NCBI GenBank assembly: GCA_022562615.1
Contig: JADFOW010000007.1
Span: 1 to 37,452, forward strand
Direction: 5' to 3'
Length of the DNA: 37,452 nucleotides
DNA from: Nitrososphaerota archaeon
GTDB lineage: Archaea; Thermoproteota; Nitrososphaeria; Nitrososphaerales; Nitrosopumilaceae
Below, in pieces: positions 4,377-9,408 of the stretch; the stretch's first letter is position 1; each line of letters opens with the position of its first letter. The translations under genes were made by a program, and so were the position numbers. The notes beneath the pieces are model-generated. The model ran no database searches and was not told where the DNA came from. It saw only the letters and a list, made by a program, of their open reading frames with translations.

Positions 4377-4595
4377 CTACTTTCTCAATTTTAATGCCAT
4401 TTTCACAGCTAGACCCCATGAAAGGATCGTGAAACCGACTGGGAATACTCCACCAGAAAGTATCTGTGGTACTTGCTCTAATGAGGCGTTTCCCGACGAG
4501 TACACTGCTGCAACTATAGGTAAGGCAAGCAAACCTATTATTCCGAATTTTGTTTTGTTTTCGGTGATTTTTGTTTGTACATTTATGGTACTCAT
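4377..4595 (-). CDS. Small two-helix membrane protein, 72 aa
   Basis: Two hydrophobic segments, about residues 17-33 (FGIIGLLALPIVAAVYSS) and 46-67 (LSGGVFPVGFTILSWGLAVK), with a basic C-terminus (MALKLRK). The overlapping frame at 4372-4605 is a shadow with poor composition. Two palindromic sites of the type seen at the AsnC/Lrp gene lie upstream (4661-4707), which suggests it is a target of that regulator. No family recognised. Confidence 0.65.
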   Translation of the reverse strand: MSTINVQTKITENKTKFGIIGLLALPIVAAVYSSGNASLEQVPQILSGGVFPVGFTILSWGLAVKMALKLRK

Positions 4596-4660
4596 TTTTT
4601 ATCAATTACTTCGACTTTACCGAGATATTTAGAATGGATCTAACTTTTAATGGATGTTTT

Positions 4661-4707
4661 GTTCAGAAATTGAATCACACAATAACAAAACAGTTCAGAA
4701 ATTGAAC
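4661..4707. promoter_or_regulatory. Pair of GTTCA-N5-TGAAC operator-like sites
   Basis: GTTCAGAAATTGAAT (4661-4675) and GTTCAGAAATTGAAC (4693-4707) share 14 identical bases and sit 32 bp apart, three helical turns. The second is a palindrome (GTTCA/TGAAC). They lie 66-112 bp upstream of the minus-strand membrane protein. The same motif pair, spaced 31 bp, flanks the AsnC/Lrp promoter at 5541-5586. Confidence 0.55.
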
Positions 4708-4745
4708 AATCGAGCCTAGGATTTCAAATTAAAAAAATAATTTCA

Positions 4746-4841
4746 TTAGGAAATTTCTAATGAACACTTGTCTGAACAAGTACGTCTATTGAATACATCT
4801 TCATATTCTTTACCACAATGTACACAGTTTCTAAATACCAC
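4746..4841 (-). CDS. Small treble-clef-like Cys protein, 31 aa
   Basis: GTG-initiated frame VFRNCVHCGKEYEDV then FNRRTCSDKCSLEIS: C6-x2-C9 ... C22-x3-C26, the layout of many small treble-clef or FCS-type zinc binders. No ATG or ribosome site is available, so the start is uncertain; the frame is closed 12 codons further upstream. A palindrome, ACTTGT-ctga-ACAAGT, lies inside it (4766-4781). Confidence 0.5.
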   Translation of the reverse strand: MVFRNCVHCGKEYEDVFNRRTCSDKCSLEIS

Positions 4842-4896
4842 AACTACAAGGCACGTGAATCGTATTTAAGAAGAGAAATTATAAAATTATTTTTTA

Positions 4897-5535
4897 TTAG
4901 ATTTTTTCTTTAAGATATTTAGGCAGGTCTGTTCCTTCTTTTTTACATATGCTTTGAATAAACCTCTTAAAATCATCCTCATCAAATAGTTGCCATCCCA
5001 TCTTATGAATATCAAGATCATATGATCTATAATCTTCCATGATATCGCCAAACCAAGCACGATAAAGATCCTCTTCTTGTTGAGCCTGCTCATGGTTGTT
5101 AAAAAACTTCAATTCAATCCAGTCAATGCTTCCATTGGTTCTTGCTGAAAAGTCACAGTAAGGTGCATTGGACAGATACTGTTTCATCTCCTCAAGTCGC
5201 TTAACAAAATCTTTGGGAGAAGAAAATTTTACTGTAATTAAACGTAAAATTGGCATGTTTACCTGCTTGAGATCAACCATTGTAGTATAACCATGAATGA
5301 TTTCAAGTTTTTCAAGTCTTGCAATTCTTTTGCCTACTCCACGTTCTGACATTTCAGTTCCTATACATTTGAGCTTCTTGACTATGGTTCTAGTAGAGTC
5401 CCGTGCATTTGCAATGAGTAGATTTAGAATTTGTCTGTCTATTACATCAATTCTAATTTCTTTTTTTTGCCCGATTATAGGCTCGGCCATAGTCATTTTT
5501 GAGTCAATCAGTATGTTGTGATGCAAAGTTAGCAT
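4897..5535 (-). CDS. AsnC/Lrp family transcriptional regulator
   Basis: N-terminal winged helix-turn-helix (IDRQILNLLIANARDS..., GVGKRIARLEKLEIIHGYTT), followed by a longer C-terminal region of ligand-sensing type (LRLITVKFSSPKDFVKRLEE, DFSARTNGSIDWIELKFF). The frame extends to 5577, but I start it at the ATG at 5535. The palindrome GTTCAAATATTGAAC (5541-5555) then lies between that ATG and an AT-rich box near 5561-5575, as expected for an autoregulated leaderless promoter. ATGs at 5496 and 5490 are alternatives. The ligand is unknown. Likely targets are itself and the membrane protein at 4377-4595. Confidence 0.8.
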   Translation of the reverse strand: MLTLHHNILIDSKMTMAEPIIGQKKEIRIDVIDRQILNLLIANARDSTRTIVKKLKCIGTEMSERGVGKRIARLEKLEIIHGYTTMVDLKQVNMPILRLITVKFSSPKDFVKRLEEMKQYLSNAPYCDFSARTNGSIDWIELKFFNNHEQAQQEEDLYRAWFGDIMEDYRSYDLDIHKMGWQLFDEDDFKRFIQSICKKEGTDLPKYLKEKI

Positions 5536-5540
5536 CCCAT

Positions 5541-5586
5541 GTTCAAATATTGAACTGAAATGGTAAAAAAAATTCAAAATCTGAAC
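5541..5586. promoter_or_regulatory. Pair of operator-like sites at the AsnC/Lrp promoter
   Basis: GTTCAAATATTGAAC (5541-5555) is a perfect 6-3-6 palindrome. ATTCAAAATCTGAAC (5572-5586) matches the same NTTCA-N5-TGAAC pattern 31 bp away. This mirrors the pair at 4661-4707 and fits autoregulation by a multimeric Lrp-type protein. The divergent gene at 5652 may share it. Confidence 0.55.
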
Positions 5587-5651
5587 AGGAAGTAATCAAA
5601 AAGTAAGCCAGGTTCTAAATAATTCTATTACTCGCTATTGTTTGATAAAAA

Positions 5652-5956
5652 TTGAAAGCACAAGAAATGCAAGAAACAGAGATTCTAAAGGAATATTATT
5701 CATTTCTTTATGACCTTGCTTCAAAGAAAAACTATCTTCATGCGTCACAACTAACTCAGGAAGAAAGAGAGTACTGTGAGAAGCTTTTGTCTGGGTGCAA
5801 AACAAAATCCCAATCAAACGAATCGTATCTGCCCTTGATGAAGAATATATTGCGAAGTCACTACAGTTCAACCAGCGGTTAAAGCCAAAATTTCAAAATT
5901 TTAACTCTGAGGAAAAGATTCAGATTCATTTCTTAATCGACCCAGATATCTGTTAA
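5652..5956 (+). pseudogene. Small helical protein gene with apparent -1 frameshift
   Basis: The first frame (TTG at 5652 or ATG at 5667) reads ILKEYYSFLYDLASKKNYLH...QEEREYCEKL, then degenerates to SGCKTKSQSNES and stops at 5882. From about 5785, another frame gives EAFVWVQNKIPIKRIVSALD, then EEYIAKSLQFNQRL...IQIHFLIDPDIC, ending at 5956 and equally protein-like. Inserting one base near CTGTGAGAAGC would join them into about 100 residues. I read this as one gene with a single-base deletion or an assembly error. No family recognised. Confidence 0.5.
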
Positions 5957-6542: not shown

Positions 6543-7049
6543 CTAGTTTTTTCTAAACGTAAATGAAGACATCCAGTATTGCATTATTTTTCGATTTAAA
6601 TCTGCGAAATCTGGGATCCTGTTGTTCCATTCCTTGACGTTATCTTTTGTTGTGTCAATTGTTGTCAGGAGTATCTGGTCTCTTACTGTTCGCGCTTTGA
6701 TAGCTGCTTCAGTTGTATCTACAACAAATTTACTTGCAGCAGTAGATTGATCAAGACTCAATCCAGTCTTACTAACAAACTCTTTTTGAACTGTAATAGT
6801 GGCTTTAAACATGTTTTCACATGTTTGAAGATATTCTTGTTGAAGTTCAAGTATAGTTTGATAGTATTTTGGAATTGAATTTTCCATATTCTCAAAGTAT
6901 CGCTCAACATTTTGTTTGTATGTTACAAAAAAGTCTTGGGTTGGCTCTGATTTAATTTCTGATTTTGTGGTTTGCTCAATTCTGACTTCTTGCTTTGCAG
7001 TTTGTTCAGGTCTGGTTTGCTGCTTTACATTTTGGTCTGCTTGGCTCAT
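6543..7049 (-). CDS. Phasin-like coiled-coil protein, 168 aa
   Basis: After a polar, Gln/Lys/Thr-rich N-terminus with repeats of the type EQTAKQEVRIEQTTKSE, the protein is almost entirely helical (NVERYFENMENSIPKYYQTI, LQQEYLQTCENMFKATITVQ, TTEAAIKARTVRDQILLTTI). This pattern and length resemble phasins and PhaE-like proteins of polyhydroxyalkanoate granules, but the match is structural, not motif-based. The frame starts at 7088, but the TATA-like TTCAAATATAAAG (about 7070-7082) is inside that extension and 26 bp before the ATG at 7049, so I take 7049. Confidence 0.65.
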   Translation of the reverse strand: MSQADQNVKQQTRPEQTAKQEVRIEQTTKSEIKSEPTQDFFVTYKQNVERYFENMENSIPKYYQTILELQQEYLQTCENMFKATITVQKEFVSKTGLSLDQSTAASKFVVDTTEAAIKARTVRDQILLTTIDTTKDNVKEWNNRIPDFADLNRKIMQYWMSSFTFRKN

Positions 7050-7339
7050 TATTCTCAAGATGTGCATCTTCTTTATATTTGAATGCAAACCTATTACAAC
7101 AATAATCGGGTAAAATTATTTTAATTTGATCTTGACATTTTTTTAATAATTTACAAAATAATTTACAAATATCTTAAAATTTCGTTAAAATTGAGCTTTT
7201 TGAAAGTTGAAATTCAGATCGTTGAAGATATTACAAAATGTTTTAGATAAATTAAACCAAAAAATTTGGCAAAAGAATTTTTTTAACATTTTAAACAATA
7301 AATCTTAGATTGTTTGAAATAAAATTGTGGAGATAAAAA

Positions 7340-9177: not shown

Positions 9178-9408
9178 GTGGCTACTAAACCCAAAAGAAA
9201 ACCAACTAGAACAATAGCCGCTAAGAAGAAAGCTGTTGCCAAACGAAGATCTACAAAGAGAGCTGTTGCCAAACGAAGATCAAAAGCTAGAACCAATATT
9301 ATTGCATATCCATCCTCATCTGGACTTAGGCGTAAGGCTGCGGCCAAGAGAAAAGCATCTGCAAAGAGAAAGATAGCTAAGAGAAAATCAGCAAGAAGAC
9401 GTGCATGA
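9178..9408 (+). CDS. H1-like Lys/Arg/Ala-rich DNA-binding protein, 76 aa
   Basis: GTG start, product MATKPKRKPTRTIAAKKKAV... with near-tandem repeats of AVAKRRS(T/K)(K/A)R and AKRKASAKRKIAKRKSARRR. Almost half of the residues are Lys or Arg, and Ala, Ser and Thr make up most of the rest. This resembles the tail of linker histone H1 and bacterial H1-like or AlgP-type proteins, so DNA compaction is likely. The central NIIAYPSSSGL is the only non-basic stretch. An antisense frame over the same DNA is a mirror of the repeats and is not a gene. Confidence 0.75.
   Translation: MATKPKRKPTRTIAAKKKAVAKRRSTKRAVAKRRSKARTNIIAYPSSSGLRRKAAAKRKASAKRKIAKRKSARRRA

Follow-up and report, generated by a model that had tools for sequence, protein, structure and literature searches.

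Putative paired operators of an archaeal Lrp-family protein

Archaeal proteins of the Lrp family bind as dimers to short palindromes that lie two or three helical turns apart, and activation by them has been tied to the placement of a dimer immediately upstream of the BRE (PMC2995911). In Sulfolobus solfataricus, Ss-LrpB recognises 15-bp palindromes that come in regularly spaced sets, and its own gene carries three (PMC4046817). From common sites, two of which are 27 bp apart, Ah-BarR acts on its own gene and on a divergent one, with the DNA wrapped on an octamer (PMC10201364). Here we describe a locus of a Nitrososphaerota archaeon (family Nitrosopumilaceae, assembly GCA_022562615.1) that compares with these systems. 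The window is the whole stretch of DNA analysed, 37,452 nucleotides of contig JADFOW010000007.1, and all coordinates refer to it unless a locus is named. The main features are the following.

4897-5496, minus strand: 199-aa regulator of the Lrp/AsnC family, assigned by HTH and profile matches and by fold search
4377-4595, minus strand: gene of a 72-aa membrane protein with two hydrophobic segments, the proposed target
4661-4675, no strand assigned: putative operator site, the nearer one to the membrane gene, GTTCA-N5-TGAAT, centre 4668
4693-4707, no strand assigned: putative operator site, the distal one of the membrane-gene pair, perfect GTTCA-N5-TGAAC, centre 4700
5541-5555, no strand assigned: putative operator site proximal to the regulator, perfect palindrome GTTCA-N5-TGAAC
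5572-5586, no strand assigned: putative operator site, the farther one from the regulator and the nearer one to the divergent gene, ATTCA-N5-TGAAC
5667-5882, plus strand: divergent 71-aa ORF, conserved, a probable further target

The arrangement has what is described for archaeal Lrp-type operators, namely palindromes of 13-15 bp at three-turn spacing and a site pair at the regulator's own promoter. As with Ah-BarR and Sa-BarR of the Sulfolobales (PMC10201364), an Lrp-type regulator is divergent from a target with intergenic sites about three turns apart, and it would control both itself and a neighbour. Unlike BarR, whose target is an aminotransferase and whose effector is beta-alanine, the system belongs to another phylum, is proposed to act on an uncharacterised membrane protein, and in the window's genus has a separate pair for each gene. 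In place of the BarR-type divergent aminotransferase, most carriers have either the membrane gene or the 71-aa ORF as the divergent gene. The likeness to Ss-LrpB (PMC4046817) is in the 15-bp palindromes, in the several regularly spaced sites, and in that these sites lie both at the regulator gene itself and at its neighbours, whereas the Ss-LrpB consensus is TTGCAAAATTTGCAA instead of GTTCA-N5-TGAAC, and its targets are porDAB and permeases. The archaeal Lrp activators Ptr2 and LysM (PMC2995911) also have dimer sites just upstream of the BRE/TATA at helical-period spacing; their targets differ, and while those two are activators, the sign of control is something that we infer here from position. 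In the open-access literature, our searches turned up nothing published on an operator or a regulon of this regulator. Taken from sequence comparison, the best reading of the locus is a local circuit in which an Lrp-family protein would regulate its own gene, much as with BarR or Ss-LrpB.

An Lrp/AsnC-family regulator with a probable RAM domain

An AsnC-type N-terminal HTH (HTH_AsnC-type, Pfam) is found in 26/26 tested orthologues of the regulator, with a best E-value of 1.9e-8; the protein of the window itself scores 22.9, below the curated Pfam cut-off of 27 bits. Its PDB profile matches are LrpA (8.7e-8), Lrp (2.1e-7) and also LrpC. The Pfam RAM model AsnC_trans_reg does not match the regulator. 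A weak AF2 model (from a shallow alignment, pLDDT 60) has the order strand-helix-strand-strand-helix-strand, as in RAM, and in a PDB fold search with it the top 21 hits belong to the Lrp/AsnC family, with alignments of about 140 columns and TM-scores that are low, 0.23-0.28 on the query. We describe the regulator as an Lrp/AsnC protein with a C-terminal extension and a divergent RAM domain, the RAM part being probable. Its named relatives are mostly Nitrosopumilaceae MAGs; a search of viral contigs found no relative.

The signal is in the pairs

The TTCA-N5-TGAA cores lie at 4662-4674 and 4694-4706, spaced by 32 bp, and at 5542-5554 and 5573-5585, spaced by 31 bp. The perfect GTTCA-N5-TGAAC is present at 2/4 sites of the window, and the remaining two are each off by one outer base. 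The signal is the pairs and not the single motif. Lone TTCA-N5-TGAA with at most one mismatch occurs 56 times in the window versus 54 expected, that is, at background. The perfect 15-mer occurs 3 times genome-wide versus 4 for a reversed control, with no enrichment, and we rejected additional lone perfect palindromes as further targets because their number is not above that control. Site pairs with a 14-24 bp gap occur exactly twice in the whole 1.54-Mb, 122-contig genome, both times at this locus, and the reversed control has 0 such pairs in the same genome. Over 250 Nitrosopumilaceae genomes we count 62 pairs. Of these, 32 stand at regulator or membrane genes; the other 30 amount to a background of about 0.12 pairs per genome. 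The original prediction had placed the sites in two pairs, 32 bp apart before the membrane gene and 31 bp apart at the AsnC/Lrp promoter, had called this pairing unlikely by chance, and had named frequent pairs across the genome as an observation that would speak against it. Both spacings hold at these positions, and the genome-wide scan, with its two pairs and its empty control, leaves the claim standing.

Conservation across Nitrosopumilaceae

Using a cut-off of E < 1e-70, we find an orthologue of the regulator in 33 of the 250 Nitrosopumilaceae genomes; this set is clear, because the next Lrp-like matches are far weaker, at 1e-38 and above. The 72-aa membrane protein is also present in 33/250 genomes, and the two genes occur together in 32 (Fisher p 4e-38, without correction for phylogeny). 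One genome has only the regulator (G018) and one only the membrane gene, with no regulator found (G190). Presence of the two genes is patchy inside genera g9, g12 and g15.

We searched 320 bp upstream of each gene for pairs with at most one mismatch, using mononucleotide shuffles as control. A pair is present upstream of 31/33 regulator genes and 45/47 membrane-gene copies, and in 0/16,000 of the shuffled upstreams. The original prediction had named conservation upstream of orthologues as a check. The regulator exceptions are a contig end (G001) and a decayed distal site (G199); the membrane-gene exceptions are copies in G188 and G190, whose pairs have about two mismatches. In G018, in which the membrane gene was not found, both the regulator and the pair are kept. 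Spacing is 30-33 bp at nearly all loci. At the membrane-gene promoters, the half-sites hold 1.7-2.0 bits per column, versus 0.75-0.9 for the site centres and 0.6-0.9 for the spacers, and we therefore see selection on the half-sites. At the regulator gene, the spacer between the sites (5559-5571, minus strand) is also conserved, TTTTTTTAACAA-like with 1.3-1.5 bits per column, in a way that the membrane-gene spacer is not. It is suggestive only, and we do not claim it, that the distal regulator site decays where the divergent partner is absent (G199, G161, G072, G082).

Promoters and gene order

The pairs stand next to the following promoter elements.

4626-4647, minus strand: conserved core promoter block, AAAGTTAGATCCATTCTAAATA, upstream of the membrane gene, holding the TATA-like TTCTAAATA at 4634-4626
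5600-5621, plus strand: second copy of this block, oriented towards the divergent gene, with the TATA-like TTCTAAATA at 5613-5621
5520-5533, minus strand: TATA-like element of the regulator gene (ATG at 5496), identified by conservation

We infer the TATA identity of these elements from position and conservation. With at most one mismatch, the genome has the block AAAGTNNGNNCNNTTCTAAATA only twice, once upstream of the membrane gene and once upstream of the 71-aa ORF, and each TTCTAAATA is about 27 bp from its own pair. Because the core block occurs before both genes, we read the regulator-side pair as a divergent operator. The TATA-like element of the regulator is a few bp past the regulator-proximal site and roughly 25-40 nt before the ATG. 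Upstream of the palindrome at 5541-5555 there is TATTTAGAA, which is the reverse complement of the TTCTAAATA box of the divergent gene. The original prediction had put this perfect palindrome between the regulator's TATA box and start, which is probably wrong, since the conserved TATA-like element (5533-5520, minus strand) lies downstream of the palindrome. The TATA box meant there was probably TATTTAGAA, which most likely serves the divergent 71-aa gene. An inverted repeat, GATGC-N7-GCATC, is found at the regulator's TATA-like element (5519-5535, minus strand); a related repeat is visible in L007 and not clearly in others.

Gene order varies amongst carriers. In the window's genus and in most g12 and g15 carriers, the membrane gene is downstream of the regulator and has its own pair. 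In the carriers of g3, g6, g8 and g13, and in G242 (g9), the regulator and the membrane gene are divergent and have one common pair. The 71-aa ORF is divergent from the regulator pair in the window's genus and in 6/9 carriers of g12. In G018, a KaiC-type ATPase (L015:2177-2992, plus strand; Pfam E 5.5e-22) is divergent to the regulator, and the gap between them has the operator pair together with a similar block, AAAAGTT...TTCTTATA. Between the regulator and the membrane gene of the window lies one more small ORF.

4746-4841, minus strand: 31-aa micro-ORF with four cysteines (CVHC...CSDKC) and a GTG start

This micro-ORF, possibly a small zinc protein, is kept in 9/9 carriers of the window's genus and was not found in the other carriers tested, outside that genus. 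Elsewhere in the window, a 76-aa Lys/Arg/Ala-rich ORF (9178-9408, plus strand) resembles a histone H1-like basic tail.

A candidate third site

4629-4643, minus strand: candidate third site TTAGA-N5-TCTAA (TTAGATCCATTCTAA), centre 4636, over the TATA-like box of the membrane gene

The centres at 4700, 4668 and 4636 are in steps of exactly 32 bp. We scanned 46 membrane-gene promoters for a 5-N5-5 inverted repeat at all offsets, and the one offset that stands out, apart from the sites themselves, is +32 from the proximal site, where 3.54/5 arm positions pair, compared with 1.38 (sd 0.53) on average over all offsets; the rank of this offset is descriptive only, because the scan followed our noticing the repeat. 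In L012 and L157 the third site has a paired change to TTAGG/CCTAA. The membrane-gene operator probably has a degenerate third site 32 bp further on. It remains a candidate, since the repeat is weak or not palindromic in two genera, g3 and g13, as well as in several of the dispersed membrane-gene copies, only 3/5 arm positions pair at this position of the 71-aa gene, and one of its arms is the TATA-like box. The core of the original prediction, paired operators through which the AsnC/Lrp protein would control its own gene and the small membrane gene, is well supported by conservation in other genomes; the divergent 71-aa gene and the probable third site have to be added to it.

The membrane protein and its dispersed copies

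Two segments of the membrane protein are hydrophobic, approximately residues 15-34 and 45-66, and its C-terminal end is basic. It matches no known family, and outside Nitrosopumilaceae there is no match among 400 genomes of the order. We considered and rejected a viral origin for this two-helix, coat-like protein (a weak inovirus coat match has E 0.078): viral contigs and phages have no relative, and there is no PHROG match.

Two Nitrosopumilus genomes hold many copies, with seven matches in G152 and nine in G184, a few of them partial or broken (loci L098, L099, L142-L145 and L148-L152); G187, G188 and G209 have two or three matches each. Nearly all dispersed copies with readable upstream DNA keep a pair, usually at -111 to -65; the edge towards the gene is as a rule constant, close to -65, and the sites are 30, 32 or 33 bp apart. 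These copies with their own pair lie far from the regulator, so the operator travels with its target, away from the regulator. By eye, we saw no common flank of the dispersed copies. About 1 kb from the regulator in the window there is a helical, phasin-like ORF (6543-7088, minus strand). A weak relative (28% identity, E 7e-5) adjoins a dispersed membrane-gene copy in G188 (L157:2951-3382), and a similar ORF adjoins another in G152 (L144:2255-2683).

Proposed circuit and alternatives

We propose that a Lrp/AsnC dimer would sit on each GTTCA-N5-TGAAC palindrome and that a multimer would bridge the two sites of a pair on one face of the DNA (30-33 bp, three turns). Direct binding of the regulator at the four sites is, from the comparative sequence data, likely. 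One pair would serve the regulator gene, whose product would control its own promoter, together with the divergent 71-aa gene; the other would serve the gene of the small two-helix membrane protein. In the likeliest scheme, the occupied upstream pair would aid the promoter there, and the weak third site, filled at a higher level of regulator, would shut it. Activation of the membrane gene by its pair is a call that we judge, from position, to be evenly balanced.

That the pairs are chance inverted repeats in AT-rich spacers is an explanation to which we give practically no credence. The single motif is indeed at background in the window, and each genome has about 0.12 unrelated pairs, but two pairs flank one gene, they are kept in several genera and have been duplicated along with the membrane gene, and the 0/16,000 pairs in shuffled upstreams already contradict chance. 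The pairs could also be operators of another transcription factor, for which the adjacent Lrp gene is just one target, and Nitrosopumilaceae genomes do hold several further Lrp-like proteins. We find this improbable: promoter pairs track the regulator orthologue in 33 genomes, G018 lost the membrane gene yet kept the regulator and its pair, G190, with no regulator found, has a weakened pair with two mismatches, and both the palindrome and the three-turn spacing match descriptions of archaeal Lrp proteins.

A different sign of control is the alternative that we take most seriously, as a possible if somewhat doubtful one. Here a multimer occupying the pair together with the third site would exclude TBP/TFB at the membrane-gene and regulator promoters, and an effector would relieve this repression. 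The overlap of the third inverted repeat with the TATA-like box points this way, as does the regulator-proximal site, which is no more than 8 bp from the TATA-like element of the regulator. Against it, the best-conserved sites of the membrane gene are at least 27 bp upstream of the TATA-like box, and this upstream placement is the one tied to activation in archaeal Lrp proteins (PMC2995911). Returning to the circuit with an aiding upstream pair, its fullest form might well be right and might equally be wrong: a self-contained Lrp circuit specific to Nitrosopumilaceae, in which an operator-promoter module travels with the membrane gene, amplification of that gene yields a multi-locus regulon under one local regulator, and three sites act as a switch, with the third over the promoter.

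Ammonia-oxidising archaea are abundant, and here an operator, a regulator and a target are linked by comparative data. The locus offers a ready system for testing Lrp control in Thaumarchaeota and a way into a family of membrane proteins that some species have amplified. That operator and target have been duplicated together shows how a local regulon of an archaeon can spread.
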